64,000 bases of DNA from Actinocorallia herbida. GTDB taxonomy: Bacteria; Actinomycetota; Actinomycetes; Streptosporangiales; Streptosporangiaceae. The stretch is taken from the NCBI RefSeq assembly GCF_003751225.1, contig NZ_RJKE01000001.1, forward strand, positions 868,001 to 932,000, in the 5' to 3' direction. A program made the position numbers and the translations under genes. Positions 27,668-45,539 of the stretch are shown piece after piece; position 1 is the stretch's first letter; the number at the start of each line of letters is the position of its first letter. The notes under the pieces are model-generated. The model worked only from the letters and a program-made list of their open reading frames with translations, was not told where the DNA came from and ran no database searches.

Positions 27668-29935
27668 GTGAAGGGCTTGAGTTTCGCGACGGAACGGGCC
27701 ACCCGGGTGGCCGAGCTTGACGAGTGGCTTGCGGAGTTGGTGGCGGACGCCGAGGGCGTCGCGCTCGTGGCGGTCGGCAGCCTCGGCCGAAGAGACCTCA
27801 CCCCGGGAGGGGATCTCGACCTCGTCCTGCTGCACGAGGGACGGGCGGACATCGCCGAGCTCGCCGAGAAGATCTGGTACCCCGTCTGGGATCGCGGCCT
27901 CCAGCTCGACCATTCGGTGCGCACGGTCGCCGAGGCCAGGGCCGTCGCGGGGGAGGACCTCAAGGCCCTGATGGGGCTGCTGCACGGCAGGTGCGTCGCG
28001 GGGGACCGCCGGCTCGCCGAGGACGTGCGCTCCAAGGTGCTGGCCGACTGGCGCGCCTCGGCGCGGACCCGGCTGCCGGAACTGCGGGAGATGACCGCGG
28101 AAAGGTGGGAACGGCTGGGCGAGCTCGCCTTCCTCCTGGAAGGCGACGTCAAGGACGCCAAGGGCGGACTGCGCGACGTGCACGTGATGCAGGCCGTGGT
28201 CGCGACCTGGGCGGTGCCCGAGCCGTCCTCAAGGGTCAGGGCCGCCTACGACACCCTCCTCGACATCCGTCACGCGCTGCACAAGCGCACGGGCCGCTCC
28301 GCCGACCGCCTCCTGCTGCAGGAACAGGACGGCGTCGCCGAGGAACTCGGCCTGGCCGACGGCATCGCGCTGCTCGGGGCCGTCGCCGAGGCCGCCCGGA
28401 CGATCTCCTACGCGGCCGACACCGTCTGGCGGAACGTCGAGCGCTTCTGCGCCCCGCCCGCGCGCGCCGAGCGCACGCCCATCGCCGACGGCCTCGTCGA
28501 GTACCAGGGAGAGGTGGTCCTGGCGCGCGGCGCGAACCTCGCGGACCCGTCGATGCCGCTGCGCGCGGCCGCCGCCTCGGCCAACGCGGGCCTCCCGCTC
28601 GCCCCCGCGACGCTCGACCAGCTCGCCAAGTCCTTCACCGCCCTGCCCGTCCCGTGGCCGGAGTCCGCCCGCACCGCCCTGGTCTCGCTGCTGGGCGCGG
28701 GCCCCGCGGCGATCCCCGTCTGGGAGGGGCTGGACCAGGTGGGCCTCGTGGTGCGGATGATCCCGGACTGGACCCGGGTCAGGAACCGGCCGCAGCGCAA
28801 CGCCGTCCACAAGTGGACCGTCGACCGGCACCTCATGGAGGCCGCCGCGGGCGTCGCGGCCCGCATCCGCGACTCCTCCCGCCCCGACCTGCTGCTCGTG
28901 GGCGCCTTCCTGCACGACATCGGCAAGGACGGCTCGGGCCGCGACCACTCGATCGCGGGCGCCGAGCACACCCGGGTGATCGCCGCCTACCTCGGCTTCC
29001 CCAAGGAGGACGTCGAGGTCCTGGAGGCCGTCGTCCTGCACCACCTGCTGCTGCCCGACACCGCGACCCGCCGAGATCTCGACGATCCGCGCACCATCGA
29101 GACCGTCGCCGAGGCCGTCGGGACGCCGCTCGTCCTCGAACTGCTGCACGCGCTCGCCGCCGCCGACGCGGGCGCGACGGGCCCCGCCGCGTGGGGTTCC
29201 TGGAAGGCCAGGCTCATCGACGAGCTCGTCCGGCGCACCGGGGCCGCCCTGCGCGGCGACGAGCCGCCGCGCACGCCCGCGCCGACCTCCGCCCAGCTCG
29301 CGCTGGCCAGGCACGACGGCGTCGCCGTCCGGGTCAGCAGCTCCGCGGTCCGCGGCACCTGGGCGCGGCACACGGGCGGGTCGCTGAGCATCACCGTGGT
29401 CGCCTGGGACCGTCCCGGGCTGCTCTGGCAGGCCGCGGGCGTGCTCGCCCTGCACAGGCTGGTCCTGCGCACCGCACGGACGTTCTCGCACGGCGACGTC
29501 GGCGGCGGCAACGCCGTCATCGAGTTCACCGCGCAGCCCGAGTTCGGCAGCCCGCCGGAGCCCGCGTCGATCGAGGCGGACCTGCGCCGCGCCCTCGCCG
29601 GGCGGCTCGACGTGGCCGACCGGCTGGAGCGGCGCGCCAAGGCCGTCCGGACCAGGCCCGGCGTGCCGGTCGCGCCGCCCAGGGTCACCTTCGTGGAGGA
29701 GGCGTCGAGCACCGCCACCGTGGTGGAGGTCCGCGCGCACGACAGGCCGGGCCTGCTGTGGCGGATCGGCCGGGTCCTGGGCGACTGCGGCCTGCACATC
29801 CGCGCCGCGAAGATCGACACGCTGGGCTCGGAGGCCGTCGACGTGTTCTACGTCGTCGGGCACGACGGCGGCCCGGTGACCGACGACGTGCTGCGCGGCG
29901 AGATCGAAGAGGACATTCTCAGCGCGCTCGGCTGA
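27668..29935 (+). CDS. glnD: Protein-PII nucleotidyltransferase GlnD
   Basis: Bifunctional sensor that modifies and de-modifies PII according to nitrogen status. The 755 residues contain an N-terminal nucleotidyltransferase domain (VGSLGRRDLTPGGDLDLVLL), a helical region (EGDVKDAKGGLRDVHVMQAV), an HD phosphohydrolase domain (LLVGAFLHDIGKDGSGRDHS) and two C-terminal ACT domains (ITVVAWDRPGLLWQAAGVLA and VVEVRAHDRPGLLWRIGRVL) for glutamine sensing. GTG 27668 is preceded directly by GGAGAG, too close to be a good ribosome site; TTG 27677 is possible. In actinobacteria the reaction is usually adenylylation. Confidence 0.95.
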   Translation: MKGLSFATERATRVAELDEWLAELVADAEGVALVAVGSLGRRDLTPGGDLDLVLLHEGRADIAELAEKIWYPVWDRGLQLDHSVRTVAEARAVAGEDLKALMGLLHGRCVAGDRRLAEDVRSKVLADWRASARTRLPELREMTAERWERLGELAFLLEGDVKDAKGGLRDVHVMQAVVATWAVPEPSSRVRAAYDTLLDIRHALHKRTGRSADRLLLQEQDGVAEELGLADGIALLGAVAEAARTISYAADTVWRNVERFCAPPARAERTPIADGLVEYQGEVVLARGANLADPSMPLRAAAASANAGLPLAPATLDQLAKSFTALPVPWPESARTALVSLLGAGPAAIPVWEGLDQVGLVVRMIPDWTRVRNRPQRNAVHKWTVDRHLMEAAAGVAARIRDSSRPDLLLVGAFLHDIGKDGSGRDHSIAGAEHTRVIAAYLGFPKEDVEVLEAVVLHHLLLPDTATRRDLDDPRTIETVAEAVGTPLVLELLHALAAADAGATGPAAWGSWKARLIDELVRRTGAALRGDEPPRTPAPTSAQLALARHDGVAVRVSSSAVRGTWARHTGGSLSITVVAWDRPGLLWQAAGVLALHRLVLRTARTFSHGDVGGGNAVIEFTAQPEFGSPPEPASIEADLRRALAGRLDVADRLERRAKAVRTRPGVPVAPPRVTFVEEASSTATVVEVRAHDRPGLLWRIGRVLGDCGLHIRAAKIDTLGSEAVDVFYVVGHDGGPVTDDVLRGEIEEDILSALG

Positions 29936-29944
29936 CGTCGGCGC

Positions 29945-29982
29945 ACGGCACCCCACCGGACACGGTTCCGGCGGGGTGCCGT
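29945..29982 (+). terminator. Intrinsic terminator after glnD
   Basis: A 16-bp stem with one mismatch pairs 29945-29960 with 29967-29982 around a 6-nt loop. It ends the nitrogen operon before the phosphate locus. Confidence 0.75.
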
Positions 29983-30119
29983 CGCGTTCCGGCCCTGGGA
30001 CGCGGTGACCGCGTGTGATGTTCGCTGTCTTTTGTGTTGTTTGTTAGCAATTCGCCTATTGAGGTGAGATCGGACATCTGAACCGGCGTCGTGCGTTCGT
30101 CTGGTGGGCCCAAGGTAAG

Positions 30120-30180
30120 CCTCCGCGAGCTGAGTGGCTCGCCGGCGGCGGTCATGCCGCCGAAGCATCTTCGCGGAGGA
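30120..30180 (+). promoter_or_regulatory. Leader hairpin that can sequester the ribosome site of the first PstS-like gene
   Basis: CCTCCGCGA (30120-30128) is the exact complement of TCGCGGAGG (30171-30179), which contains the GGAGGA ribosome site of ATG 30184. Alternative inner hairpins (CGAGC/GCTCG near 30126-30141 and GGCGG/CCGCC near 30145-30160) would compete with it. It could be a translational switch; no known riboswitch class is recognised. A weak promoter TTGTGT-N19-TATTGA lies at 30032-30062. Confidence 0.45.
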
Positions 30181-30183
30181 AGA

Positions 30184-31212
30184 ATGCTCAAGAAGATGGT
30201 CCTCAGCGCGGCGGCAGTCGCGCTGGCCGTCTGCGCCGTCCAGGTTCCGGCGAACGCCGACCCGGGCTTCACGCCGGCCAAGACCGACTTCGTCGGGGTC
30301 GGTTCGGACACGACGCAGGACGTCGTGAACGCGCTCGCCGCCGCGTACAACAAGACGAAGCCGGCCAACAAGCTCGCCAGCTTCAACGCGACCGGCTCGG
30401 CCACCTTCGTGCCGAAGAAGGGCCTGCCCAAGCGGGCCCGCGTGGTCGGCTCCAGCAACGGCATCAAGGCGCTGCTGGCCGACACCGAGGGCGCTTACGA
30501 CTTCGCCCGTTCCTCGCGCGCGAAGAAGACCGACGGCAGCGAGGCCACGCTGAGCTTCTACGCCTTCGCGCAGGACGGCGTCACCTGGGCGGTGAACTAC
30601 AACAGCTTCGCGCCCAAGAGCCTGAAGAAGTCCCAGCTCGCCAACATCTACAAGTGCTCCGGCGCGGCCCGCTACTGGGACCAGGTCGGCGGCAAGAAGA
30701 ACGGCAAGAAGCGCGTCGCCATCAAGCCGTGGCTGCCGCAGGCCGGCTCCGGCACCCGCTCCTTCTTCCTCGGCGCGATCGGCCTGACCGACGCCCAGGT
30801 CGGCTCCTGCGTGAACCAGAAGGCCACCAACATCGAGAACGACGGCACCAAGGTCGGCGCGGGCCGCGCCGCCATCGCGCCGTTCTCCATCGCGCAGTGG
30901 GTCGCCCAGGCGATCAACCACAAGAGCGATCGCCACGGCAAGCTCGTCCTCGGCAAGATCTCGGGCGTCTCGCCGACCACCGGCAAGATCACCGTCACCA
31001 AGAAGGGCGGCGTCAAGGGCAAGAACATCCGCCTGAACGCCGCCGACTTCCCGCACCAGTTCCTGCGGCTGGTCTACAACGTCGTCCGCACCGGCGACGC
31101 CGCCGAGTTCGAGCCGGTCTTCGGCCCGACCGGCTACGTGTGCGACCAGACCGCGCTCATCCGCTCCTACGGCTTCGAGCCGATCGGTGGCGGCTGCGGC
31201 GCGCTGTCCTAG
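30184..31212 (+). CDS. Secreted PstS-like substrate-binding protein
   Basis: About 342 residues with a Sec signal peptide (MLKKMVLSAAAVALAVCAVQ, cleavage after VPANA). The mature part has the PBP-like phosphate-binding fold: FVGVGSDTTQDVVNALAAAY, FNATGSATFVP, GAYDFARSSR, the second anion-site segment PQAGSGTRSFFLGAIGL, and FSIAQWVAQAINH. Unlike usual Gram-positive PstS it has neither a lipobox nor a C-terminal membrane segment, so it should be free or loosely held. ATG 30184 follows GGAGGA. A strong hairpin separates it from pstC. Confidence 0.8.
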   Translation: MLKKMVLSAAAVALAVCAVQVPANADPGFTPAKTDFVGVGSDTTQDVVNALAAAYNKTKPANKLASFNATGSATFVPKKGLPKRARVVGSSNGIKALLADTEGAYDFARSSRAKKTDGSEATLSFYAFAQDGVTWAVNYNSFAPKSLKKSQLANIYKCSGAARYWDQVGGKKNGKKRVAIKPWLPQAGSGTRSFFLGAIGLTDAQVGSCVNQKATNIENDGTKVGAGRAAIAPFSIAQWVAQAINHKSDRHGKLVLGKISGVSPTTGKITVTKKGGVKGKNIRLNAADFPHQFLRLVYNVVRTGDAAEFEPVFGPTGYVCDQTALIRSYGFEPIGGGCGALS

Positions 31213-31238
31213 CCGCGGCACGCGACTGAAGCACCCGA

Positions 31239-31274
31239 GCCGAAGGCGACCGGCGCCGTCCGGTCGCCTTCGGC
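31239..31274 (+). terminator. Hairpin between the first PstS-like gene and pstC
   Basis: Perfect 15-bp stem (31239-31253 with 31260-31274), loop CGCCGT, followed by CCTTGTCCT. It probably lets the binding protein be expressed above the transporter. Confidence 0.8.
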
Positions 31275-31302
31275 CCTTGTCCTCGTAAGAACGGTCAGCA
31301 CG

Positions 31303-32307
31303 ATGAGCATCGCCTCTCCGGCGCCTCCCCATGCCGAGCCCGTCGCGGAGCAGAAGCGGCGGACCACCGCGCGCCTCCTCCCGGTGGACGTCGCCTTCCG
31401 CACGGCGGTACGCGGCTCGGGCTTGACGCTCCTGGTCATCCTCGGCTTCATCGGCCTCTTCCTGGCCCTCCGCGGCTTCTCGGCGCTCGACACCGCCGGG
31501 CACCGCTTCTTCACCACGCAGACCTGGGACCCGGAGCTGCACGACTTCGGCATCGCCTCGGTGCTGCCGGGCACCGTCGAGATCGCGCTGACCGCGCTGG
31601 TGGTCGGCGTGCCGATCGCGGTGTTCGCCGCGCTGTACATCAGCGAGTACGCGGCGCCGGGCATGCGCCGCGCGCTGATCGCGCTCATCGACCTCATGGC
31701 CGCGATCCCCTCGATCCTCTACGGGCTCTGGGGGGTGACGTTCCTCCAGCCGCGCCTGATCGGAGTCTCGCGCTGGCTGTCGGACCACGCGTCCTTCCTC
31801 CCCTTCTTCCGGGTCGACACCGACCACGCGGACCCCGGTTCCTTCACCTCCTCGCACTTCATCGCCGGCCTCGTCGTCGGCATGATGGTGATCCCGATCT
31901 GCTGCTCGCTGTCGCGGGAGGTGTTCTCCCAGGCCCCGCAGGCGGAGCGGGAGGCGGCCTACGCGCTCGGCTCGACCCGCTGGGGCATGATCCGCACCGT
32001 GGTGCTGCCGTTCGGGCGCGGCGGCGTCATCGGCGCGGCGATGCTCTCGCTGGGCCGCGCGCTGGGGGAGACCATCGCGGTCGTCCTCATCATCTCCCCG
32101 GACTTCCGCGCCACCCTCCACGTGCTGGAGGGCGCGGGCAACTCCATCTCCGCGCTCATCGCGCTGCGCTACTCCGACTCCAGCGAGTTCGGCCTGTCGG
32201 CCCTCATGGCCGCGGGACTCGTGCTGTTCGCGGTGACGCTCGTCATCAACTTCTTCGCCGCCATGATCATCAACCGCAGCCGTTCCGGCGCGTCGACCGA
32301 GGCCTGA
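31303..32307 (+). CDS. pstC: Phosphate ABC transporter permease PstC
   Basis: Membrane subunit of the high-affinity phosphate importer. The 334 residues have six predicted helices, starting GLTLLVILGFIGLFLALRGF. The EAA-type coupling loop is SREVFSQAPQAEREAAYALG, followed by STRWGMIRTVVLPFGRGGVI and GRALGETIAVVLI. The intracellular N-terminus is short. pstA starts 3 nt after its stop. Confidence 0.95.
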   Translation: MSIASPAPPHAEPVAEQKRRTTARLLPVDVAFRTAVRGSGLTLLVILGFIGLFLALRGFSALDTAGHRFFTTQTWDPELHDFGIASVLPGTVEIALTALVVGVPIAVFAALYISEYAAPGMRRALIALIDLMAAIPSILYGLWGVTFLQPRLIGVSRWLSDHASFLPFFRVDTDHADPGSFTSSHFIAGLVVGMMVIPICCSLSREVFSQAPQAEREAAYALGSTRWGMIRTVVLPFGRGGVIGAAMLSLGRALGETIAVVLIISPDFRATLHVLEGAGNSISALIALRYSDSSEFGLSALMAAGLVLFAVTLVINFFAAMIINRSRSGASTEA

Positions 32308-32310
32308 GCC

Positions 32311-33531
32311 ATGACCATCGCCGATCCGCGCACCGACCCGCCCGCCGCGACCGACCGGGCGGCGGAGCCCCGGCCGGCGCCGCGCGGCCGCTTCCGCCCC
32401 GGTGGCGCCGTCCGCGAGGACCGCTTCGCCCTGGCCGGGGCCGCCGTGGCGAGCCTGACCCTGGTGTGGATCCTGTTCACCAGGCTGCTGCCCTTCACCG
32501 GCGCGCTCGGCTTCGCCGCGTGCTGGTACGTGGCCTTCCTTCTCCTGTACGCGGTCATCGTGACGCACGAGCACGGGCGGCTCGCCGCGGCCGACCGCCT
32601 GGTGAGCGTGCTCGTGCACAGCGCGGGGCTGCTCACCGTCACCGTCATCGCGGCGATCCTCGGGTTCACCGTGCTGCGCGGGGCGCAGGCGTTCGCGCAC
32701 GCCAACTTCTTCACCCAGACGATGTCCGACACCGGCGCGCTCGACCCGCTCACCAGCGGCGGCGTGCTCCACGCCGTCGTCGGCTCGCTGATTCAGCTCG
32801 GCATCGGGGTGGCCATCGCGATGCCGCTGGGGATCGCCACCGCGCTGTTCCTGGTCGAGGTCGGCGGGCGGCTGACCCGTCCGGTGCGGCTCATCGTCGA
32901 CACGATGAGCGCGCTGCCGTCCGTCCTGGCGGGGCTGTTCGTGCTCGCCGCCTTCATCCTGACCTTCGGGTTCCAGAAGTCCGGTCTCGCCGCCGCCCTG
33001 GCCATCGCGATCATGATGGTGCCGATCGTCACCCGGGCGTCCGAGGTCGTCCTGCGGCTGGTGCCGGGCGGGCTGCGCGAGGCCGCCTACGCGCTCGGCG
33101 CCGGGCAGTGGCAGGTCGTGCGGCACGTGGTGCTGCCGACGGCGCGCTCCGGCCTGGCGACCGGCATCGTGCTGGCGATGGCGCGCGGAGTGGGCGAGAC
33201 CGCCCCGGTGCTGCTGACGGCGGGGTTCGCGCGCGGCATGAACGCCGACCCCTTCGAGGGGAACATGACGAACCTCCCCCTCTACATCTACACCTACGTG
33301 AAGTTCCCGCAGCCGGACATGGTCTCGCGGGCGTTCGGGGCGGCCCTGGTGCTGGCGCTCGTCGTCCTCGTGCTCTTCACCGTCGCGCGCCTCCTGGGGG
33401 GTGCGGCGCCCGGGCAGATGACGCGCCGCGCCCGCCGCAGGCTCGCGGCGGCCGAGCGCGCCTCCGCCCCGGCCCCCGCCCCGCTGCCGGTGAAGTCACC
33501 CCTCCCATCCGAGAAGGAGACGTCCGCATGA
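32311..33531 (+). CDS. pstA: Phosphate ABC transporter permease PstA
   Basis: Second permease subunit. The family core is seen in HAVVGSLIQLGIGVAIAMPL, LPSVLAGLFVLAAF, the coupling loop VPGGLREAAYALGAGQWQVV and ARGVGETAPVLLTAGF. At 406 residues it is about 100 longer than most PstA. Two extra membrane helices precede the core (ALAGAAVASLTLVWILFTRL and ALGFAACWYVAFLLLYAVIV), and a basic, Pro-rich cytosolic tail follows it. Its stop overlaps the pstS start by 4 nt. Confidence 0.95.
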   Translation: MTIADPRTDPPAATDRAAEPRPAPRGRFRPGGAVREDRFALAGAAVASLTLVWILFTRLLPFTGALGFAACWYVAFLLLYAVIVTHEHGRLAAADRLVSVLVHSAGLLTVTVIAAILGFTVLRGAQAFAHANFFTQTMSDTGALDPLTSGGVLHAVVGSLIQLGIGVAIAMPLGIATALFLVEVGGRLTRPVRLIVDTMSALPSVLAGLFVLAAFILTFGFQKSGLAAALAIAIMMVPIVTRASEVVLRLVPGGLREAAYALGAGQWQVVRHVVLPTARSGLATGIVLAMARGVGETAPVLLTAGFARGMNADPFEGNMTNLPLYIYTYVKFPQPDMVSRAFGAALVLALVVLVLFTVARLLGGAAPGQMTRRARRRLAAAERASAPAPAPLPVKSPLPSEKETSA

Positions 33532-35006
33532 GCGCTCGACGTCTGGGGGCGCTCGCACTGGCGTCCCTGATCGCACTCCTGCCCGTCCGCCCCGCCGCGG
33601 CGGCCGATTTCGTGCCCGTGACGGGCAGCGGCTCGACCTGGAGCCAGGTGGCGCTGGACCAGTGGGCGGCCGCGGTCAAGAAGAACGGCATCACCGTCAA
33701 CTACACCGGGTCGGGCTCGACCGCGGGGCGCACCGACTTCCGCAGCTCCCAGGTCGACTTCGCCGTCTCGGAGATCCCCTTCCAGCTGCACCCCGAGGAC
33801 GGCAGCCCGGCCGAGGTGAGCAAGCGCGCCTACGCCTACATGCCGATCGTCGCGGGCGGCACGTCGTTCATGTACCACCTCACCAAGAACGGCAAGCGGG
33901 TGGAGAACCTGCGGCTGTCGGGCGACACGCTCACCAAGATCTTCACCGGGAAGATCACCAACTGGAGCGACCCGGCGATCACCAAGGACATGAACGGCGT
34001 GGCGATGCCGAACCGGAAGATCACTCCGGTGACGCGCTCGGACGGCTCGGGCACCACCGCGCAGTTCTCCCTGTGGATGGACACCCAGTACCCCGACCTG
34101 TGGCGGCCCTTCTTCAAGAAGAAGGGCCTGACCTCGTACTATCCGACGCTGCCCGGAGGCAAGCAGCAGAACGGCTCCAACGGCGTGGCCGCCTACGTGT
34201 CGGCCAGCTACGGAGAGGGCGCCATCACCTACGTCGAGTACGCCTACGCGCGGAACGCGGGCTACCCGGCCGTCAAAGTGAAGAACAAGTCCGGCTACTT
34301 CACGCTGCCGACCGCGTCCAACGTCGCGGTCGCGCTCACCAAGGCCGAGATCAACTCCGACCTGACCCAGAAGCTCGAGGGCGTCTACGACAGCGCCGAC
34401 AAGCGCGCTTATCCGCTGTCGAGCTATTCGTACATGATCATCCCGACGTCCACGCAGGCGCCCTTCACCAAGGAGAAGGGCCAGACGCTCTCGACGTTCA
34501 TCGACTACTTCCTGTGCTCCGGCCAGCAGAAGGCGCCGGAACTCGGCTACTCGCCGCTGCCGAAGAACCTGGTCGAGGCCGCCTACACGCAGATGAACCG
34601 GATACCCGGTCACATCTCGGCGGGGGCGGACCTGTCCACCTGCCACAACCCCACCTTCGAGGGCGGCGAGAACGTGCTGCTCAAGACCGCCCCGCAACCC
34701 GAGGCGTGCGACCAGGAGGGCAAGATCCCCTGCGGCGAGCCCGGCGCGGGCACCACCGCCACCGGCGACGCGCCGGACGCGAGCGCCGCGCCGACCGCGG
34801 GCGCCACCACGGCGGCCGTCGCCGCGGACGGGCCGGTGGTCGCGGCGGACAGCACCGCCTTCGCCGAGCCGGTCGAGGTCGCGGCGCAGAGCGGGGTGGG
34901 GCTGGTCGCCGGGGCGGTCTCCGCCGCGGTGCTGCTGGGGGCGCTCGTGCTGCCCCCGGTCCTCACCGCCTACACCCGCCGCCGCCGCGCGGGAGGACAG
35001 CGATGA
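33528..35006 (+). CDS. pstS: Phosphate-binding protein PstS with C-terminal membrane anchor
   Basis: A 492-residue protein with a Sec signal peptide ending PVRPAAAA and no lipobox. The phosphate-binding domain has VTGSGSTWSQVALDQWAAAV, NYTGSGSTAGRTDF, the anion-site RSDGSGTTAQFSLWM, NGSNGVAAYVSASYGEGAIT and YSYMIIPTST. After an Ala/Thr-rich linker (residues about 405-455) comes a membrane helix (GVGLVAGAVSAAVLLGALVL) and a basic tail TRRRRAGGQR, so it is tethered by protein rather than lipid. ATG 33528 overlaps the pstA stop as ATGA, and its own stop overlaps the next gene the same way. Confidence 0.9.
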   Translation: MSARRLGALALASLIALLPVRPAAAADFVPVTGSGSTWSQVALDQWAAAVKKNGITVNYTGSGSTAGRTDFRSSQVDFAVSEIPFQLHPEDGSPAEVSKRAYAYMPIVAGGTSFMYHLTKNGKRVENLRLSGDTLTKIFTGKITNWSDPAITKDMNGVAMPNRKITPVTRSDGSGTTAQFSLWMDTQYPDLWRPFFKKKGLTSYYPTLPGGKQQNGSNGVAAYVSASYGEGAITYVEYAYARNAGYPAVKVKNKSGYFTLPTASNVAVALTKAEINSDLTQKLEGVYDSADKRAYPLSSYSYMIIPTSTQAPFTKEKGQTLSTFIDYFLCSGQQKAPELGYSPLPKNLVEAAYTQMNRIPGHISAGADLSTCHNPTFEGGENVLLKTAPQPEACDQEGKIPCGEPGAGTTATGDAPDASAAPTAGATTAAVAADGPVVAADSTAFAEPVEVAAQSGVGLVAGAVSAAVLLGALVLPPVLTAYTRRRRAGGQR

Positions 35007-37201
35007 CCCGTCGCACGATCTGGGCCGCCGTCACCGCCGTCGCCGTGGCGTTCTGCACCGCGGCGGCCGCCTCGCCGCAGCCCCCCACCACCCCGTCGGC
35101 GACGCCCGAGGCCACCGCGAGCGAGACCCCGGGAGAGACCCCGACGGTCGACCCGAGCCCGAGCACGCCCGCGACCGACGACCCCGAGTACCCGGCGAAC
35201 ACCAAGGGCAAGGTGACGCTCGACCAGTCCACCGACCTGGTCAACCAGGTCATCCGGGTGAGCTGGCAAGGGTTCGAACCGAGCTCCGACGCGTTCCTCA
35301 GCGACAGCACCACCCACGTCGTCCGGGTCTACCAGTGCCGCGGTCAGGAACCCGAGTCCATCGCCGACTGCTACGGCTCGGGCTCCTTCACCTACCCCGA
35401 CAAGCCCAAGGACGGCGGCGTGCTGCCCGACGGGCCGACCAACGCCGTCACCGCCCTGACCGCGAAGAACGGCAAGGGCTACGCCGACGTCGAGGTGCGC
35501 ACCATCGCCGAGTCGGCGAGCCTCGGGTGCGACACCGCCGGCGACTGCTCGATCGCGGTGATCCCCAACGACGGCGACCCGGCCAGGCCCGCCCTGGACG
35601 GCCAGCTCGCCACCCAGGCGTACCTCGACTCCGCCTGGGCCTGGGCCAACCGGGTCGTCGTGCCGATCGGCTTCTCGCCGTCGGCGGCCACCTGCGCGCT
35701 GGAGGACGCCGACTTCCGCGTCAGCGGATCACCCCAGGCCAAGCGGCTCATCGAGCGCTGGCAGCCGGGGCTGTGCACGTCCAAGGCGGACGTGGACGTC
35801 GACTACACCTCGCTCGGCGAGCCGCTGGCCCGCTCCAGCTTCCAGACCAACGGCACCGACGTCGCGCTGACGACCCGGCCCGAGGACGCCGCCGCGTCGC
35901 GCGCGTTCGACTACGCGCCGGTCGGCATCTCCGGCATCTCGATCGCCTACCGGATCGACGACGCCGACACCGGCAAGCCGATCACCGACATCAAGCTGAC
36001 ACCCCGCCTCGTCGCCAAGATCCTCACCGAGTCCTACTCGATGAGCGCCGCGTGCGGACCCGGTGTGAAGGACTGCAACAAGGCGACCGAGGACAACCCG
36101 CAGGACATCTTCCAGGACCCGGAGTTCCTCAAGCTCAACGGCGAGGACCGCTCCTGGCCGAGCATGGGCTGGCCGACCGTCGTGTCCGGCGACAACGACC
36201 TCACCTACGAGCTGACCCGCTGGCTGGCCGCCGACCCCACCGCCGCGGCCTTCCTCAACGGCGCCAAGGCCCCCGGCGGGATGACGGTGAACAAGAACTT
36301 CAAGGGCGCGGAGTTCCCCGCGAGCGCGTTCGTCTCCCGGGACCCGGACAAGCGGTTCATCCACGGGTTCATCCCGGTGCTCGGGCTCTCCGAGGTCGCC
36401 CGCTTCCTGGTGACGAACCGGGACAACAGCGAGAACTACGTCAAGGACCAGTACGGCAACTACGTGAAGACCCCGCCGTACGCCGTCGGCAACCGCGGGC
36501 TGTTCGCGATCGTCGCCACCTCCGACGCGCAGGCGCTGCGGTTCTCCTCGGCGCGGCTGCGCAACGCGGCGGGCAAGTACGTGGCGCCCACCGACGCGTC
36601 CATGGCCGCGATGCTGAAGCACCTGAAGACCAACGCCGACGGCGTGACACAGCTGCCCGACTACGCGGCCGAGGACGCCAAGGCCTACCCGCTGACCCAC
36701 GTCCAGTACGCCGAGGTGCCCACGAACGGGGTCGCCGCGGCCAAGGCGAAGAAGATCGCCGCGTTCCTCCGGCACGCGGCGGGCCCCGGGCAGAAACCCG
36801 GTGTCCGGCCCGGCACGCGGCCCGTCGGCTATGTGCCGCTGACCGCCGCGATGAAGGCGCAGACGAAGAAGGCGGCGAAGGACGTCATCGCCCAGAAGGG
36901 CACGATCCCCGAGCCGCCCGGCGCCGCCGCGCCGGACGTGCCGGAGGCCGTCGAGACGTCCCAGCCGGTCTCGCTCCCGGCGATCGGCGCGGGCGCGCCC
37001 GCACCCATGGGCGGGCGCCTGTCGGCCGACGCGGCGGCGCTGCTCGGCTGGCTGCTGCCCGCCCTGCTCGGCACCGGCCTCGCGGCCGCGCTGGCCGGGA
37101 CCGTCCTTTACGGCGCGGGCAGGTTCGGCACGTTCGTCCCGCCGCTGCCGCGCGTGAGTCCGCGCTCCTTCCGGGGCGTGGGAAGGAGGCGAAAGCCGTG
37201 A
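35003..37201 (+). CDS. Large PstS-like substrate-binding protein with C-terminal membrane anchor
   Basis: A 732-residue exported protein: signal peptide (MTRRTIWAAVTAVAVAFC...), a Thr/Pro/Glu-rich linker, an Ig-like beta region (QVIRVSWQGFEPSSDAFLSD) and a long PBP-like region (DVALTTRPEDAAASRAFDYA, ISIAYRIDD, YPLTHVQYAEVPTNG). A Pro/Ala linker contains SLPAIGAG, followed by one helix (LLGWLLPALLGTGLAAALAG) and a basic tail ending GRRRKP. It may deliver phosphate or a related anion to the same permease, or act as a surface scaffold. Starts and ends with 4-nt overlaps, so it is coupled to pstS and to the sortase-like gene. Confidence 0.75.
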   Translation: MTRRTIWAAVTAVAVAFCTAAAASPQPPTTPSATPEATASETPGETPTVDPSPSTPATDDPEYPANTKGKVTLDQSTDLVNQVIRVSWQGFEPSSDAFLSDSTTHVVRVYQCRGQEPESIADCYGSGSFTYPDKPKDGGVLPDGPTNAVTALTAKNGKGYADVEVRTIAESASLGCDTAGDCSIAVIPNDGDPARPALDGQLATQAYLDSAWAWANRVVVPIGFSPSAATCALEDADFRVSGSPQAKRLIERWQPGLCTSKADVDVDYTSLGEPLARSSFQTNGTDVALTTRPEDAAASRAFDYAPVGISGISIAYRIDDADTGKPITDIKLTPRLVAKILTESYSMSAACGPGVKDCNKATEDNPQDIFQDPEFLKLNGEDRSWPSMGWPTVVSGDNDLTYELTRWLAADPTAAAFLNGAKAPGGMTVNKNFKGAEFPASAFVSRDPDKRFIHGFIPVLGLSEVARFLVTNRDNSENYVKDQYGNYVKTPPYAVGNRGLFAIVATSDAQALRFSSARLRNAAGKYVAPTDASMAAMLKHLKTNADGVTQLPDYAAEDAKAYPLTHVQYAEVPTNGVAAAKAKKIAAFLRHAAGPGQKPGVRPGTRPVGYVPLTAAMKAQTKKAAKDVIAQKGTIPEPPGAAAPDVPEAVETSQPVSLPAIGAGAPAPMGGRLSADAAALLGWLLPALLGTGLAAALAGTVLYGAGRFGTFVPPLPRVSPRSFRGVGRRRKP

Positions 37202-38082
37202 CCGCCGTCGAAGAACTCCCCGTGCGGGCGGAGGCGCCCGAAGCGCCCGAGCCGCCGGCGCGGCCGCGCTCCGCCGATCCGCCGCTGCGGATCGCAGGGG
37301 TGAGCCTCGGGCTGCTCGGCGTGTTCGTGCTCGGGTTCCTCGCCTACCTCGCGGTGCTCTCCCCGCTCCAGCACGACCGGGACCAGGAGGTCCGCTACGC
37401 CGACTTCAGGAAGGAACTCGCCGAGGGCGTCGCGCCCGTCGCCCCGCCGATCTCCGCCGGGGCATCGGTGGCCGTCCTGGAGATCCCCCGGCTCGGGCTG
37501 CGCGAGGTCGTCGTGGAAGGGACGACGTCCGCCGAACTGGTGCACGGGCCCGGCCACCGCCGCGACACCCCGCTGCCCGGGCAGCCGGGCATCAGCGTGA
37601 TCCTCGGACGCGCGGGCACCTACGGCGGCCCGTTCGGCGCGCTCGGCAAGCTGCACACGGGTGACGTCATCACGGTGATCACCGGCCAGGGACTCGCCTC
37701 CTACACCGTCAGCGGCGGCGGGCCGTCGATCCTGCCGCCGGAGTCGGGCTCCTCGACCCTCGTGCTGGTGACCGCCGACAGCGGTGTCGCCCCGCACGGC
37801 GAGGCGCTGGTGACGGCCAGGCTCACGAGCCGTCCGGTGGCCGGGAACTCCGCGGAGCCGCCGCGCATCGGCCGGTCCGAGGTCGGCCTCAGCGCCGACC
37901 CCGGCGCGCTGCTCCCGCTGCTCCTCTGGGCGGAGGCGCTCCTCCTGGCCGCCGGGCTGACGACCTTCTCCTACCTGCGCTGGTCGAGGTGGCCCACCTA
38001 CGTCGTCTCCTCGCCCGTCCTGCTGGCGGTGCTCTGGAACATCTACGAGAGCCTCGCCCGGCTCCTCCCCAACACGCTCTGA
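37198..38082 (+). CDS. Sortase-fold membrane protein lacking catalytic residues (pseudosortase)
   Basis: A 294-residue protein with a Pro/Glu/Ala-rich cytosolic N-terminus, a membrane helix (residues 31-54), an extracellular sortase-like domain (about 85-210) and two further hydrophobic segments (about 236-285). The fold is seen in [50 protein letters not shown] and SSTLVLVT. The active His of the GHR motif is Arg138 (ILGRAG). The active Cys of TLxTC is Ala193 (LVTADSG), and the usual Arg in the last strand is not found. It is therefore probably not a transpeptidase. GTG 37198 overlaps the upstream stop by 4 nt; pstB follows 17 nt later. Confidence 0.75.
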
Positions 38083-38099
38083 GACAAGACGGGCCCGAC

Positions 38100-38948
38100 A
38101 TGACCTCGCACGACAAGACCCTGACCGACCTGACCCCGATCGACCGGACGGCCGTCCTGGACGGTCTCACGCGCCGCCCCGGAGGTGGTCTCGTGGCCAC
38201 CGACGTCTCCGCCTGGTTCGGCGAGCGCAAGGTGCTCGACCGGGTGGGCCTGGCCATGGAGCCGGGCCGGGTGACCGCCCTGATCGGCCCGTCGGGCTGC
38301 GGCAAGTCGACCTTCCTGCGGATCCTCAACCGGATGCACGAGCTGATCCCGTCGGCGTCGCTCGCGGGGGAGGTGGCCCTCGACGGCGAGGACATCTACG
38401 CGCCGGGACGCCGTATCACCGAGGTGCGCCGCCGCATCGGCATGGTGTTCCAGAAGCCCAACCCCTTCCCCACCATGTCGATCTACGACAACGTCACCTC
38501 CGGGCTGAAGCTCTCCGGCCTGAAGACCCCCGACAAGGACGCGCTCGTGGAGCAGTGCCTGCGCCGCGCCGGGCTGTGGAACGAGGTCGAGAAGCGGCTG
38601 CGCGCCCCCGGCGGCGCCCTGTCGGGCGGGCAGCAGCAGCGCCTGTGCATCGCGAGGTCGCTGGCCGTCTCGCCCGAGGTGCTGCTCATGGACGAGCCGT
38701 GCTCGGCCCTCGACCCCACCTCGACCAGGCGGATCGAGGAGACGATAGGGGAGCTCGCCGCCGAGGTGACCATCGTCATCGTCACCCACAACATGCAGCA
38801 GGCGCACCGCGTGTCCGACACCTGCGCGTTCTTCCTCGCCGAGCAGGACACCCCCGGCCGTATCGTGGAATCCGGTCCCACATCGGAGATCTTCGACAAT
38901 CCCGCCGACCCCAGGACCGCCGACTACGTCAACGGGCGCTTCGGATAG
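38100..38948 (+). CDS. pstB: Phosphate ABC transporter ATPase PstB
   Basis: ATPase of the phosphate importer, 282 residues. Walker A is [20 protein letters not shown], the Q-loop [17 protein letters not shown] is typical of PstB, the signature is [16 protein letters not shown], Walker B is [20 protein letters not shown], and the H-loop [13 protein letters not shown]. An N-terminal extension of about 35 residues precedes the domain. No phoU follows. ATG 38100 has only a weak ribosome site. Confidence 0.96.
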
Positions 38949-38995
38949 GTAGGCTGTCTGCGTTTCCCATTTTCCGCGTCACGCTAGGACGGGTC

Positions 38996-40528
38996 GTGTT
39001 CGAGAATCTCTCCGATCGGCTGACTTCGGTCTTCACCAACCTGCGCAGCAAGGGCAGGTTGTCGGAGTCCGACATCAATGCCACCGCGCGGGAGATCCGG
39101 GTCGCGCTCCTCGAGGCGGACGTCGCGCTGCCGGTGGTCAAGGGGTTCATCGAGAACGTCAAGGAGCGGGCGCGCGGCGTCGACGTCTCCAAGGCGCTGA
39201 ACCCCGCGCAGCAGGTCGTCAAGATCGTCAACGACGAGCTGATCGAGATCCTGGGCGGTGAGACCCGGCGCGTCCGGTTCGCCAAGACCGCCCCGACGGT
39301 CATCATGCTCGCGGGCCTCCAGGGCGCCGGTAAGACCACCCTGGCGGGCAAACTGGCCCGCTGGCTCAAGGAGGAGGGCCACACGCCCCTCCTGGTGGCC
39401 TGCGACCTCCAGCGCCCCAACGCCGTCCAGCAGCTCCAGGTGATGGGCGAGCGGGCCGGGGTCCCGGTCTTCGCGCCCGAGCCGGGCAACGGCGTCGGCG
39501 ACCCCGTCCGGGTCGCGCAGTCGTCGATCATCGAGGCCAAGCGCGCCCAGCACGACGTGGTGATCATCGACACCGCGGGCCGGCTCGGCATCGACACCGA
39601 GATGATGCAGCAGGCCATCGACATCCGGCAGAGCACCCAGCCGGACGAGGTCCTGTTCGTCGTCGACGCCATGGTCGGCCAGGACGCGGTCAACACCGCC
39701 CAGGCGTTCATGGACGGCGTCGGCTTCGACGGCGTCGTGCTCACCAAGCTCGACGGCGACGCCCGCGGCGGCGCGGCGCTGTCCATCCGGCAGATCACCG
39801 GCCGGCCGATCATGTTCGCCTCCACGGGCGAGAAGCTCGAGGACTTCGACGTCTTCCACCCCGACCGGATGGCCGGCCGGATCCTGGACATGGGCGACAT
39901 CCTCACCCTCATCGAGCAGGCCCAGCGCCAGTTCGACGAGGAAGAGGCGGCCAAGATGGCCGGGAAGCTCGCCTCGGGCGAGGACTTCACGCTGGACGAC
40001 TTCCTCCAGCAGATGATGATGATCCAGAAGATGGGCCCGATCGGGAACCTGCTGGGCATGCTGCCCGGCATGGGCCAGATGCGGCAGCAGATCGACCAGA
40101 TCGACGATCGCGACCTCGACCGGGTCGCCGCGATCATCCGGTCCATGACGCCCGGCGAGCGCGCCGAACCGAAGATGATCAACGGCTCGCGCCGCGCCCG
40201 CATCGCCAAGGGCTCCGGCACCACGGTCGGCGAGGTCAGCTCGCTCGTCACCCGGTTCTTCCAGGCCCAGAAGATGATGAAGGCCATGGCCGGCGGCATG
40301 GGGATCCCCGGAATGCCGGGCACCCGCCGTGGCAAGCCCGCCAAGCAGGTCAAGCCCAAGAAGGGCAAGCGCCAGTCCGGCGACCCCCGCAAGCGGGCCC
40401 TGGGCCCCGGTGCGAAGCCCGAGGAGCAGCAGGGCGGCCTGCCCCCGGCCTTCGGCGGCGGCCTGCCCCAGCAGCTCCCCCCGGGCTTCCAGATGCCCGA
40501 CCTGGGCGACTTCGGCAAGAAGGACTGA
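38996..40528 (+). CDS. ffh: Signal recognition particle protein Ffh
   Basis: GTPase of the signal recognition particle, working with FtsY (23676). The 510 residues have an N domain (FENLSDRLTSVFTNLRSKGR), a G domain (LAGLQGAGKTTLAGKLARWL, DTAGRLGIDTEMM, TKLDGDARGGAALS) and a Met-rich M domain (FLQQMMMIQKMGPIGNLLGM, MIRSM-like segments). A Gly/Pro-rich tail ends the protein. GTG 38996 follows GGACGGG. Confidence 0.97.
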   Translation: MFENLSDRLTSVFTNLRSKGRLSESDINATAREIRVALLEADVALPVVKGFIENVKERARGVDVSKALNPAQQVVKIVNDELIEILGGETRRVRFAKTAPTVIMLAGLQGAGKTTLAGKLARWLKEEGHTPLLVACDLQRPNAVQQLQVMGERAGVPVFAPEPGNGVGDPVRVAQSSIIEAKRAQHDVVIIDTAGRLGIDTEMMQQAIDIRQSTQPDEVLFVVDAMVGQDAVNTAQAFMDGVGFDGVVLTKLDGDARGGAALSIRQITGRPIMFASTGEKLEDFDVFHPDRMAGRILDMGDILTLIEQAQRQFDEEEAAKMAGKLASGEDFTLDDFLQQMMMIQKMGPIGNLLGMLPGMGQMRQQIDQIDDRDLDRVAAIIRSMTPGERAEPKMINGSRRARIAKGSGTTVGEVSSLVTRFFQAQKMMKAMAGGMGIPGMPGTRRGKPAKQVKPKKGKRQSGDPRKRALGPGAKPEEQQGGLPPAFGGGLPQQLPPGFQMPDLGDFGKKD

Positions 40529-40533
40529 CCCCG

Positions 40534-40576
40534 ACCGCCCCGGCGCTCTGCGGGAAACGCAGGGTGCGGGGGCGGT
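40534..40576 (+). terminator. Intrinsic terminator after ffh
   Basis: ACCGCCCC (40534-40541) pairs with GGGGCGGT (40569-40576), with inner CTGCG/CGCAG around GGAAA, followed by TTCGG. Confidence 0.7.
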
Positions 40577-40610
40577 TTCGGAGTGGCGTGGGCGAGCAGT
40601 CACTCGGATC

Positions 40611-40619
40611 TGGCAGAAT
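40611..40619 (+). promoter_or_regulatory. Possible extended -10 promoter of the rpsP operon
   Basis: TGGCAGAAT contains CAGAAT at 40614-40619 with an upstream TG. It leaves a leader of about 130 nt before rpsP in which I see no clear structure. Confidence 0.35.
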
Positions 40620-40753
40620 GGGATGCTGGAAACCCGGTACGTGAGGCGCCCTCTCATCGCCCTAGCGCCCGGAGTCCATCTGAACGGCTCCGCTCTGGTC
40701 CCCACCCTTGCGGTCGTCGTTCTCCTGTTACTGAAACCGGAGTTACCACACCC

Positions 40754-41194
40754 GTGGCTGTCAAGATCAAGCTCAAGCGTCTCGGTAAGATCCGCGGCGC
40801 CCAGTACCGCATCGTCATCGCCGACGCCCGCACCAAGCGGGACGGTCGCGCGATCGAGGAGATCGGCAAGTACCACCCGAAGGAGGAGCCCTCGCTGATC
40901 GAGGTCGAGTCCGAGCGGGTGCAGTACTGGCTGGGCGTCGGCGCGCAGCCGACCGAGTCCGTCGAGAAGCTGCTCAAGATCACCGGCGACTGGCAGAAGT
41001 TCAAGGGCCTTCCCGGCGCCGAGGGCACGCTGAAGACCGCCGAGCCCAAGGCCGACAAGGGCGCGCTGTTCGCCGCCGCCTCCAAGGAGGCCGCGAACCT
41101 CGACGGTGGCGCCGCCACCACGCCGAAGGCGGCCAAGAAGAAGGCCGAGCCCAAGGAAGAGTCCGCCGAGACCGAAGCCCCGAGCGAGGCCTAA
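40754..41194 (+). CDS. rpsP: 30S ribosomal protein S16
   Basis: S16 core ([20 protein letters not shown] ... [36 protein letters not shown]) with a Lys/Glu/Ala-rich C-terminal extension of about 50 residues, common in actinobacteria. 146 residues. GTG 40754 has GGAG about 11 nt upstream. First gene of rpsP-khpA-rimM-trmD. Confidence 0.97.
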
Positions 41195-41437
41195 GTGCTC
41201 GAAGAAGCGCTCGAGCACCTGGTCCGTGGCATCGTCGATCACCCCGACGAGGTGCAGGTCAACGCCAAGCGGATCCGCGGTGGCCGAGTCCTCGAGGTGC
41301 GTGTGCACGCCGAGGACCTCGGCAAGGTCATCGGCCGGAGCGGTCGTACCGCGAAGGCCCTCCGCACGGTCATGGGCGCCCTCTCGGGCGGCCGTTATGT
41401 CCGTGTGGACCTGCTCGACGTCAACGAGGTCCGCTGA
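41195..41437 (+). CDS. khpA: KH-domain RNA-binding protein KhpA
   Basis: An 80-residue single KH domain with the RNA-binding loop VIGRSGRTAKALRTVMGAL (GxxG). KhpA acts with KhpB/Jag on small RNAs and cell division in other Gram-positives (family knowledge). GTG 41195 directly follows the rpsP stop, with no gap. Confidence 0.93.
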   Translation: MLEEALEHLVRGIVDHPDEVQVNAKRIRGGRVLEVRVHAEDLGKVIGRSGRTAKALRTVMGALSGGRYVRVDLLDVNEVR

Positions 41438-41440
41438 CCA

Positions 41441-41941
41441 GTGCAATTGGTAGTGGGCCGCATCGGCAAACCGCACGGTATCCGTGGCGACGTCACCGTC
41501 GACGTCCGTACTGACGACGCCGACACCCGGTTCGCACCGGGTGAGGCGCTCGCCACGGATCCCGTGTCGGCCGGTCCGCTGACGGTCGCGTCGGCCCGCT
41601 GGCACAGCGGGCGTCTCGTGGTGCGCTTCGAGGGGGTCGCCGATCGCAACGGCGCCGAGGGGCTGCGCGGCATCTGGCTGGTGATCGATTCCGCGGAGAT
41701 CCTGCCCTCGTCCGATCCGGACGAGTTCCACGACCAGCAGCTCATCGGGCTGAGGGTCGTCACCACTTCCGGCGAGGAGATCGGGACGGTCTCGGAGATC
41801 CTGCATCACGCGCAGGAGCTCATCGTGGTGGACACCCCCGCCGGTGACCGTTATGTGCCTTTCGTCGCGGCGATCGTCCCGGAGGTCGACCTCGAAGGCG
41901 GCCGGCTGGTCGTCGATCCGCCCGGCGGGCTCTTCGACTAG
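41441..41941 (+). CDS. rimM: Ribosome maturation factor RimM
   Basis: A 166-residue 30S assembly factor that binds S19. The N-terminal domain starts VVGRIGKPHGIRGDVTVDVR, and the C-terminal PRC-barrel runs DEFHDQQLIGLRVVTTSGEE to YVPFVAAIVPEVDLEGGRLV. GTG 41441 lies 3 nt after khpA. Confidence 0.95.
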   Translation: MQLVVGRIGKPHGIRGDVTVDVRTDDADTRFAPGEALATDPVSAGPLTVASARWHSGRLVVRFEGVADRNGAEGLRGIWLVIDSAEILPSSDPDEFHDQQLIGLRVVTTSGEEIGTVSEILHHAQELIVVDTPAGDRYVPFVAAIVPEVDLEGGRLVVDPPGGLFD

Positions 41942-41961
41942 CGACCCTCCCGGATCCTCAC

Positions 41962-42750
41962 GTGCGCTTCGACGTCATCACGATCTTCCCCGAGTACTTC
42001 TCGCCCCTGTCGGCCTCCCTGCTGGGCAAGGCCGCCGACAAGGGGCTTCTGTCGTTCGGCGTGCACGACCTGCGCGACTGGGCCTACGACAGGCACCGCA
42101 CCGTGGACGACACGCCGTACGGCGGCGGTCCCGGCATGGTCATGAAGCCCGCCCCTTGGGGTGAGGCCCTGGACGACGTGCTGACGCCGGAAAGCCGGCT
42201 CGTCGTCCCCACCCCGTCAGGCAGGCCGTTCACTCAGGCCGTCGCGGGAGAACTCGCCTCCGCGCCCCACCTCGTCTTCGCGTGCGGGCGCTACGAGGGC
42301 ATCGACTCGCGCGTCATGGCGCACTACCGGGACGTCGTAGAGGTCCACGAGCTCAGCATCGGCGACTACGTGCTCGCCGGGGGAGAGGTCGCGGTCCTGG
42401 TGATGGTCGAGGCGGTCTCCCGGCTCGTGCCCGGCGTCCTCGGCAACGCCGAGTCCGTCTCCGACGACTCCTTCGCGCCCGGCCGGATGGAGACCCTCGT
42501 CGAAGGGCCCGTCTACACCAAGCCGCCCGTCTGGCGCGATCGGGAGGTGCCCGCGGTCCTGAAGTCGGGCCACCACGGGAAGATCGCGCGCTGGCGGCGC
42601 GACGAGGCGTTCCGCCGGACCGCCGCGCTGCGGCCCGACCTCCTGGCGCGGCTGGACCCCAAGGCGCTGGACAAGCACGACCGCAGGCTCCTGGCGGAGC
42701 TCGGGCTGGGCGACCTCGCGGTGCCCGGCCGGCACGCGCTGGACGGCTGA
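41962..42750 (+). CDS. trmD: tRNA (guanine37-N1)-methyltransferase
   Basis: SPOUT methyltransferase for m1G37, which prevents frameshifting. 262 residues. MRFDVITIFPEYFSPLSASL, DDTPYGGGPGMVMKPAP, the knot segment LVFACGRYEGIDSRVM and SIGDYVLAGGEVAVLVM are intact. GTG 41962, 20 nt after rimM. The 175-nt gap before rplS has GC-rich hairpin-forming sequence near 42830-42855 but no gene. Confidence 0.97.
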   Translation: MRFDVITIFPEYFSPLSASLLGKAADKGLLSFGVHDLRDWAYDRHRTVDDTPYGGGPGMVMKPAPWGEALDDVLTPESRLVVPTPSGRPFTQAVAGELASAPHLVFACGRYEGIDSRVMAHYRDVVEVHELSIGDYVLAGGEVAVLVMVEAVSRLVPGVLGNAESVSDDSFAPGRMETLVEGPVYTKPPVWRDREVPAVLKSGHHGKIARWRRDEAFRRTAALRPDLLARLDPKALDKHDRRLLAELGLGDLAVPGRHALDG

Positions 42751-42925
42751 TCGCCCGCGGGCCGCCGGTGATCGGGTGAGTGCGCTCCGATTTGGAGGAG
42801 CACCCCGAAGGTATGGCAAACTAGAGCGTCGCGTGCTTTCGCGCGCGCTCATACGTCCCCGCACCTGACGCCCCCATCTCCACTCTGGGGCCTCTCCGGT
42901 CCGGGCCAGCAAGCAAGGACACTCC

Positions 42926-43279
42926 ATGCACACCCTGATCCAGGAGATCGAGAAGGCCGCGCTGCGGTCGGACCTCCCGAGCTTCCGCCCCGGTGACACC
43001 GTCAAGGTGCACGTGCGGATCACCGAGGGCAAGGTCAGCCGTATCCAGCTCTTCGAGGGCGTCGTGATCCGCCGTCAGGGCGGCGGCGCGCGCGAGACCT
43101 TCACCGTCCGCAAGGTCAGCAAGGGCGGCTACGGCGTCGAGCGGACCTTCCCGCTCAACCTCCCGGCCATCGAGAAGCTCGAGGTCACCATCCGCGGTGA
43201 CGTGCGCCGCGCCAAGCTCTACTACCTGCGCAACCTGCGCGGCAAGGCCGCCCGCATCAAGGAGAAGCGCGACTTCTAG
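42926..43279 (+). CDS. rplS: 50S ribosomal protein L19
   Basis: A 117-residue L19: [54 protein letters not shown] and a C-terminal [23 protein letters not shown] 42926 follows AAGGA. A strong terminator follows. Confidence 0.97.
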
Positions 43280-43301
43280 TCGTCACTCCCCACGGGACTT
43301 T

Positions 43302-43337
43302 CCGAACGCCTGGCCTCTTACGGGGCCGGGCGTTCGG
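43302..43337 (+). terminator. Intrinsic terminator after rplS
   Basis: CCGAACGCCTGGCC (43302-43315) pairs with 43324-43337 with one G-U pair, followed by CGTTCTT. Confidence 0.8.
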
Positions 43338-43406
43338 CGTTCTTGGCCGCCGCATGGCCTTGGCCCGCGGGGGCGCCGGGCGGGGCAGCGCTAGGCTCGC
43401 TCTCTG

Positions 43407-44312: not shown

Positions 44313-44397
44313 CGGTGACCGGATCCACACCCGTCCATGACGGGGGATCTCGTCGGGCATTGGGTGGTCGTCCGTCGGTGGGCGTAAAGTTCCGGGT

Positions 44398-44430
44398 ATG
44401 TACAGCCGCTCGATCGGGCTCCTCCCGTGA
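44398..44430 (+). CDS. Possible 10-residue upstream ORF coupled to rnhB
   Basis: ATG 44398 opens a micro-ORF, MYSRSIGLLP, whose TGA (44428-44430) overlaps the GTG start of rnhB as GTGA. It sits behind TTCCGGG. It may serve translational coupling or be chance. Confidence 0.3.
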   Translation: MYSRSIGLLP

Positions 44431-45441: not shown

Positions 45442-45517
45442 GCCGATTTTCTTCTTCTCCGTTATCGCCTGGTCGGTCGGTCTTTGTCGGCCGTTTTTCA
45501 CGCCGTCTCCGCAGAAG

Positions 45518-45526
45518 TTATCCACA
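45518..45526 (+). promoter_or_regulatory. Single consensus DnaA box
   Basis: TTATCCACA is a perfect DnaA-box sequence in the 151-nt gap before yraN. It stands alone, so it is not an origin; it could titrate DnaA or regulate yraN. Confidence 0.4.
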
Positions 45527-45539
45527 GAATGCGATTCGG
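45521..45539 (+). repeat. Copy 1 of a 19-bp inverted repeat pair
   Basis: TCCACAGAATGCGATTCGG here recurs with one mismatch on the opposite strand at 52329-52347, flanking the yraN-to-M23 segment. Confidence 0.6.

Follow-up and report, generated by a model that had tools for sequence, protein, structure and literature searches.

What is a relative of the cell-wall transpeptidases doing among the genes of a phosphate importer? The question is put by a locus of Actinocorallia herbida within the 64,000-nt stretch of DNA analysed here (the window; position numbers are those of the whole of it, with start codons picked by eye), in which seven plus-strand genes encode, in order, a secreted PstS-like protein (S1), the permeases PstC and PstA, two further PstS-like proteins (S2 and a large one, L), a sortase-like protein and the ATPase PstB. 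This order departs from contiguous pstSCAB, which often comes with phoU, and the coordinates agree with a preliminary description of the sequence that had given it together with 4-nt junctions from pstA through the sortase-like gene: the overlaps are ATGA for pstA/S2 and S2/L and GTGA for L/sortase, with gaps of 3 nt between pstC and pstA and of 17 nt between the sortase-like gene and pstB. The answer we favour, and consider probable without regarding it as secure, is that the locus encodes a phosphate importer of Pst type, in a variant form whose receptors are tethered and whose scaffold is a non-catalytic protein of sortase fold.

The sortase-like protein (37198..38082, plus strand like the other genes of the locus) is predicted to have an N-terminal helix, a class E-like sortase domain and two C-terminal helices ending LLPNTL. 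It scores over the cut-off of Pfam PF04203 (46.5 bits) and does not reach that of NCBIfam NF033747 (68.6 against 160). The best structure matches of a profile of 20 relatives are the class E sortases 5go6 and 5go5 (E 1.2e-27 to 5go5), and the model of the protein (mean pLDDT 75.4, pTM 0.67) has the sortase fold flanked by a single N-terminal helix and a pair of C-terminal ones, its best E-value being to 5uus, a C. diphtheriae sortase, and its TM-score to 5go5 being 0.72 by target length. The fold is thus common to this protein and to the class E enzymes, SrtE1 of Streptomyces coelicolor and SrtE of S. avermitilis among them; the two C-terminal helices with their LPN-type end are an addition to it, and the catalytic Cys is missing, while other residues mostly stand in place of the His, the Arg and the LAxTG tyrosine. 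For SrtE1 the excerpted text of PMC5148588 gives His251, Cys320 and Arg329 as catalytic, with Tyr229 proposed for LAxTG. Where active enzymes carry Cys, His and Arg the window protein has Ala193, Arg138 and Glu202, and at the Tyr place it has Arg121.

How general is the loss? Residues were counted in 139 distinct rows of 171 extracted; as these were picked for their similarity to the window's own protein, a distant active member could have escaped (the phylum sample did yield two, L252 and L254, considered below). The 139 include L083 as well as L042 and L197, both cut by a contig edge, and L054, a 10-base stretch, was unused. Not one row has Cys at the catalytic place, which is occupied by Ala in 98, Thr in 14, Ser in 14, Gly in 9 and Val in 3, the single gap being L083, where the correct reading is Ala. 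The His place holds Arg in 123 rows, Lys in 4 and His in 10, with two gaps, and the Arg place retains Arg in 10; the ten His-keeping rows belong to a group with a divergent gene layout, which has therefore lost mainly the cysteine. Twelve ordinary class E sortases from the same searches, by comparison, all have Cys, His and Arg, and Tyr in 11 with Phe in one. The LP[NSA]-type tail, found in none of these 12 controls, ends 137 of the 139 rows, the remaining two being a mis-extracted row and a contig-edge row. Since the cysteine is gone from all rows while the tail is kept, the protein seems to be maintained for a non-catalytic purpose. The inactive sortase of the preliminary description is on this count well founded, and by its sequence the protein is a pseudoenzyme (pseudosortase below). 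Residual catalysis through another nucleophile is not a general solution, the cysteine site being Ala in 98 rows and Thr or Ser in 28.

Does the pseudosortase belong with phosphate transport or merely lie beside it here? Its surroundings were followed through order, named, class and phylum samples, the first three of which share a few genomes. The order sample comprised 297 genomes, with a match accepted at E below 1e-25 and a run to the C-terminal end (8 candidates were scored per genome, and misses are possible). It gave 22 pseudosortase places in 20 genomes, two of them truncated by a contig end; in a further 230 genomes there are matches, all of them weaker. Besides the window, pstB, pstC or pstA accompanies the gene at 20 of 21 places, the exception, L043, being a 6-kb contig, and the layout is either collinear or divergent from pstC-pstA-pstB-pstS. 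Among the best 80 of 411 confirmed named relatives, which include Streptomyces, Kitasatospora, Frankia, Jiangella, Amycolatopsis, Micromonosporaceae and Nocardioides, pstB is present at 77 loci, one or other of pstB, pstC and pstA at 78 and some pst-type gene at all 80. The nearest named relative among the matches listed is Actinocorallia sp. API 0066 (L057; pseudosortase identity 86%); the third of the genus, G144, gives weaker, class E-like matches only. Class-wide, 296 genomes of 115 genera were covered; 38 of the genomes, from 23 genera, have a pseudosortase (E 1e-22 or better), at 45 places in all. Of these, 40 lie in larger stretches and 4 in 1.5-kb flanks, the last being the window; pstB, pstC or pstA is found at 38 of the 45 and some pst-type gene at 44. 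At L169 only about 50 bases separate the gene from a contig end, and the 8 kb in the other direction contain no pst-type gene. Ordinary class E control loci had pst genes in their flanks of about 1.5 kb in none of 12 cases (one, L027, gave a weak 31% ABC match), and the two class E sortases of the window's own genome have none in the 16 kb that surround them. In relatives, then, the sortase-like gene sits with pst genes and not away from them, and the recurrence of the arrangement in all four samples rules out chance neighbours. Three genomes of one genus (g97; G352, G421 and G402, with loci L174, L177 and L172) carry two copies of the locus each, one of them without pstB in the stretch.

The association with L is nearly complete. 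Searched for with query residues 68-650 at E 1e-8 or better, L is present in 40 of the 296 class-sample genomes: 37 have both L and pseudosortase, one the pseudosortase only, three L only and 255 neither. The pseudosortase-only genome, G311, is 78% complete, and those with L only are G360 (76% complete), G362 (94%) and G506, in the last of which a partial pseudosortase runs up to the edge of the contig carrying L. Across 50 loci the distances of the components run in parallel (r 0.76-0.94).

What do the binding proteins have to tell? S2 (33528..35006) scores over the TIGR00975 cut-off (211.7 bits against 205) and bears one C-terminal hydrophobic segment, a predicted membrane helix, with Pro-Pro and a basic tail. 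The phosphate-contact positions considered are those of E. coli PstS, carried over to S2 by alignment. Ser36, Ser64, Arg170, Asp172, Ser174 and Gly175 are invariant in 49 of 49 rows; at the Asp56 place 38 rows, the window among them, have Glu and 11 have Asp, and the Thr10 and Thr141 places are variable, the latter being Thr in 37. S1 (30184..31212; 342 aa, over the cut-off of Pfam PBP_like_2) has what by eye is a signal peptidase I type signal and is without a membrane anchor; its phosphate loop retains Ser-Gly-Thr-Arg, of which Ser and Gly are present in 68 of 68 rows and Thr in 65.

L (35003..37201) is a different matter. It gives family matches below the cut-offs only (PBP_like_2, 25.7 against 27; TIGR00975, 50 against 205), and structure comparison matches its PstS-fold domain to Mtb PstS3 (TM 0.83 by target length) and its N-terminal domain to the neocarzinostatin-like macromomycin (TM 0.64, E 8e-5). 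Aligned with S2, it has Glu at Thr10 in 48 of 56 rows, Glu or Asp at Ser38 in all 56 and Asp at Gly140 in 48, and Arg135 is not conserved; the acidic trend is the same in 34 class- and phylum-sample rows, a few of them from one species. L of the divergent layout keeps Ser38 and Arg135 in 9 of 10 rows (L053 has Glu at Ser38), and L at L247 and L250 keeps both. With most of the phosphate site lost, L is unlikely to be a third phosphate receptor, and as a second receptor beside S2 the main-clade form was rejected on the same residues. The acidic residues at phosphate-contact places raise the possibility that main-clade L binds a cation or a basic protein surface. A charge swap between the acidic site of L and the Arg at the His and Tyr sites of the pseudosortase fits the two main clades; since L247 and L250 break the pattern it is not relied upon (4 of 14 rows in this comparison were S2-type and excluded as L).

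None of the three window proteins has a lipobox discernible by eye, as the preliminary description had it, and the pattern occurs in 1 of 49 S2, 0 of 56 L and 0 of 68 S1 of relatives; a separate, canonical PstS of the same genome, which reads ...LSAC, serves as internal control. The two binding proteins there described as tethered at their C-termini are S2 and L, in the window as in relatives: in L too there is one hydrophobic segment (model helix 675-706) followed by a basic tail, and the helix is present in 55 of 56 complete S2 rows (L084_16033, the one without it, is encoded on the opposite strand as a separate PstS), with Pro-Pro in 53, and in 66 of 68 L rows (exceptions L092 and L106), as against a hydrophobic segment in 1 of 75 S1 rows. 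Three PstS-like binding proteins had been envisaged; S2 stands as such, S1 turns out to be soluble and not tethered, and the receptor role probably falls away for L.

The two permeases are of Pst type. PstC (31303..32307) and PstA (32311..33531) score over their cut-offs (TIGR02138, 248.7 bits against 196.45; TIGR00974, 211.8 against 193.45), and PstA has an N-terminal extension with two extra hydrophobic segments (39-57 and 66-84) ahead of the usual core, which simple hydropathy finds also in 24 of 31 complete rows of relatives. Elsewhere the same genome has a canonical operon (L210) with a lipoprotein PstS, pstC, a 299-aa pstA and pstB, and with a PHO-box-like repeat of 13/14 upstream. PstB of the locus (38100..38948) is distinct from the canonical one: matches in 20 chosen genomes form two identity groups, at 72-89% (the window itself 100%) and 55-62%, and canonical-type PstB was found also in 13 of 13 chosen genomes that have the locus type. 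In a midpoint-rooted tree, for which the program warned of long branches, 26 locus-linked rows stand apart from 15 canonical rows with support 100/100 on both sides; the split is read as 26 against 15 since L129_11556, labelled canonical by the identity cut, sits in a pseudosortase locus. As far as sequence goes, locus PstB is a lineage apart from canonical PstB. The occurrence of the locus in many actinobacterial genera and the canonical-type PstB beside it leave the suggestion of a thick or specialised wall without evidence.

With the PstSCAB importer of E. coli, mycobacteria and Streptomyces the locus shares PstC, PstA, PstB and one PstS with its phosphate contacts, together with PHO-box-like repeats in several relatives. 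It differs in that its PstS is tethered by a C-terminal helix instead of by lipid, in a second tethered but degenerate PstS and a soluble third PstS-like protein, in the two extra helices of PstA, the pseudosortase and the split gene order, and in having its own PstB clade beside a canonical operon. How might such a set of proteins work? PstC, PstA with its extra helices and PstB would be the pump, with PstB driving uptake, and we infer that it is phosphate that is transported. S2 would be the receptor, fixed to the membrane through a helix of its own and handing phosphate to PstCA while tethered, and S1 may act as a soluble scavenger in the wall that passes phosphate to S2. Three features make a structural role the most likely one for L and the pseudosortase: their evolution parallels that of the pump, ancestral active residues are gone from both, and their membrane modules are retained. 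They would be non-catalytic subunits keeping the receptors at the pump, with the two C-terminal helices of the pseudosortase packed in the membrane and its sortase groove perhaps a docking site, for the receptor stalks or for L. The more specific proposal, that in this ABC importer the sortase fold has come to serve as an integral subunit without catalytic activity, that dead groove and L dock mutually or to the stalks, so holding the tethered receptors at PstCA, and that such an assembly is spread across several classes of Actinomycetota, we put forward tentatively, with our doubts slightly the stronger.

Upstream signals bear on the phosphate assignment. With a PHO-box-like core taken from the direct repeats printed in PMC3004843 (in the portion consulted), repeats of 12/14 or better lie upstream of 8 of 25 relatives and in 1.1% of control stretches, and 14 of the 25 reach p < 0.05; the 25 were picked by availability of an upstream stretch, and related species among them are not independent.

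Several observations weigh against an importer with a sortase-fold scaffold. The other 11 of those 25 relatives do not beat the control, and upstream in the window and in its sister L057 there is no PHO box that does. Window PstB, at 333.2 bits (E 8.4e-100), falls slightly below the curated TIGR00972 cut-off of 343.2. Gene order varies among loci; at 7 of the 40 larger class-sample stretches none of pstB, pstC and pstA was found, some of them at contig ends, and L174 and L177 have S1, S2 and L with no pstB within about 8 kb. G362, for all its 94% completeness, has L without a full-length pseudosortase. The parallel distances single out no specific partner. Finally, a protein with LAxTG or LPxTG, a helix and a basic tail lies within 9 kb at 38 of 79 named loci (the background rate was not measured).

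This last point allows a role in wall-protein handling, the strongest alternative, though in our estimate an unlikely one: the pseudosortase would hold such Ig-like LAxTG/LPxTG proteins or present them to a real class E sortase, the pst genes being co-regulated neighbours. At 34 of the 38 loci the LxxTG protein is upstream within about 2.5 kb, and several carry Big_3_5 Ig-like domains. At L129 (9925-11484) S1 is fused to Big_3_5 domains of the kind elsewhere found in the LAxTG protein of the locus, a fusion that on sequence suggests docking of S1 to the wall protein, and at two loci (L067:3038-4609 and L083:5048-6604) WxL-domain proteins, over the cut-off, lie inside the pst-pseudosortase locus, L067 having also a sub-threshold WxL-interacting match. 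Yet the window retains its pseudosortase with no LxxTG wall-sorting protein among the 19 ORFs called in 28198-47198, and so do the 41 other named loci at which none was found, some of which are short contigs. The place of the tyrosine proposed for LAxTG is Arg in 104 of the 139 rows, Leu in 12 and Tyr in 10, with others in the rest; S1, S2 and L themselves have no LxxTG sorting signal ahead of a C-terminal helix (0 of 75, 0 of 56 and 0 of 68); and handling of wall proteins would leave the nearly complete co-occurrence with L to be accounted for. WxL surface-protein clusters are not known to carry pst genes; their domains are shared by L067 and L083 and were not seen in the window operon. Elsewhere in the window's own genome (L055, C1:6666000-6682000) an ordinary class E sortase stands beside proteins that match WxL-interacting, neocarzinostatin and LPxTG-anchor families above their cut-offs, and beside a WxL match that falls short of its own, perhaps an actinobacterial WxL-type surface cluster.

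Could the same tethered complex serve a ligand other than free phosphate, such as a phosphate ester or another oxyanion? The Glu that stands for Asp56 in most S2 rows, the replaced site of L and the presence of a canonical pstSCAB in the genome would suit this; the invariance of the six other S2 positions tested and the enrichment of PHO-box-like repeats upstream in relatives tell against it, and we judge it improbable. More improbable again is a phosphate-sensing complex in which L and the pseudosortase report the state of S2 or of the transporter to PhoR or PhoU, for although a regulatory role would suit both the degenerate receptor and the dead enzyme, and canonical pst also signals, the sole full-length PhoU match of the genome lies elsewhere, outside the locus, and no kinase gene was noticed in the window operon (relatives were not searched for such genes).

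Of the remaining features of the locus, the 90-nt gap between S1 and pstC holds a hairpin (31239..31274, plus strand) with a 15-bp perfect stem and a 6-nt loop (z -2.34; 5 of 200 shuffles fold equally well), which is kept with a changed loop in the sister genome L057 and is possibly a transcript attenuator or stabiliser. The seven genes are flanked by glnD-like and ffh-like genes, both so named by eye only. Rfam and tRNA searches of the window gave no matches, nor did a plasmid search.

Where did a sortase without catalysis come from? The phylum sample gave a match in 13 of 396 genomes. Nine places lie outside the class. Six of them (L247-L251 and L253) are beside pst genes and have no Cys at the site. 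Two others, L252:8063-8929 (minus strand) and L254:7812-8747 (plus strand), are class E-like sortases with complete catalytic motifs (GHY, GHR, TCHP or ACHP), no pst genes in about 17 kb (a weak 30% ABC match at L254 apart) and the same C-terminal hydrophobic module as the pseudosortase, ending LLPANY or LLPSNF; L255, read only to an in-frame stop, has the look of an ordinary class E sortase as far as that. L252 and L254, which are in other classes of the phylum, adjoin genes that by eye are cytochrome c biogenesis-like. The shared module suggests that the pseudosortase descends from an active sortase already bearing it, to whose ancestral form L252 and L254 are likely to be close, and these two unlinked cases suggest a tie between pst linkage and the missing cysteine.

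Judged by their titles and the opening lines of their abstracts, none of the papers listed in searches of the open-access literature ties a sortase-like protein to a pst transporter, and none is on a pseudosortase. In a Streptomyces review (PMC7866108), PstSCAB is given with an anchored PstS and the word sortase does not occur; in the consulted portions of PMC5882110 and PMC9723661, sortase and PstS are both mentioned and treated apart, the former presenting a divergent Streptomyces sortase group (SCO3737) with proposed co-transcription with its substrates, in another gene neighbourhood.

If the proposal is true, a cell-wall transpeptidase has been turned into a transporter part, with its likely active ancestor still extant in the form of L252 and L254; the findings suggest that an old surface-protein enzyme became a structural part of a nutrient importer. 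The LPN-ending pseudosortase together with L would then be a defined marker for a second route of phosphate acquisition in actinobacteria, and one that covers genera of antibiotic producers in which phosphate controls secondary metabolism.

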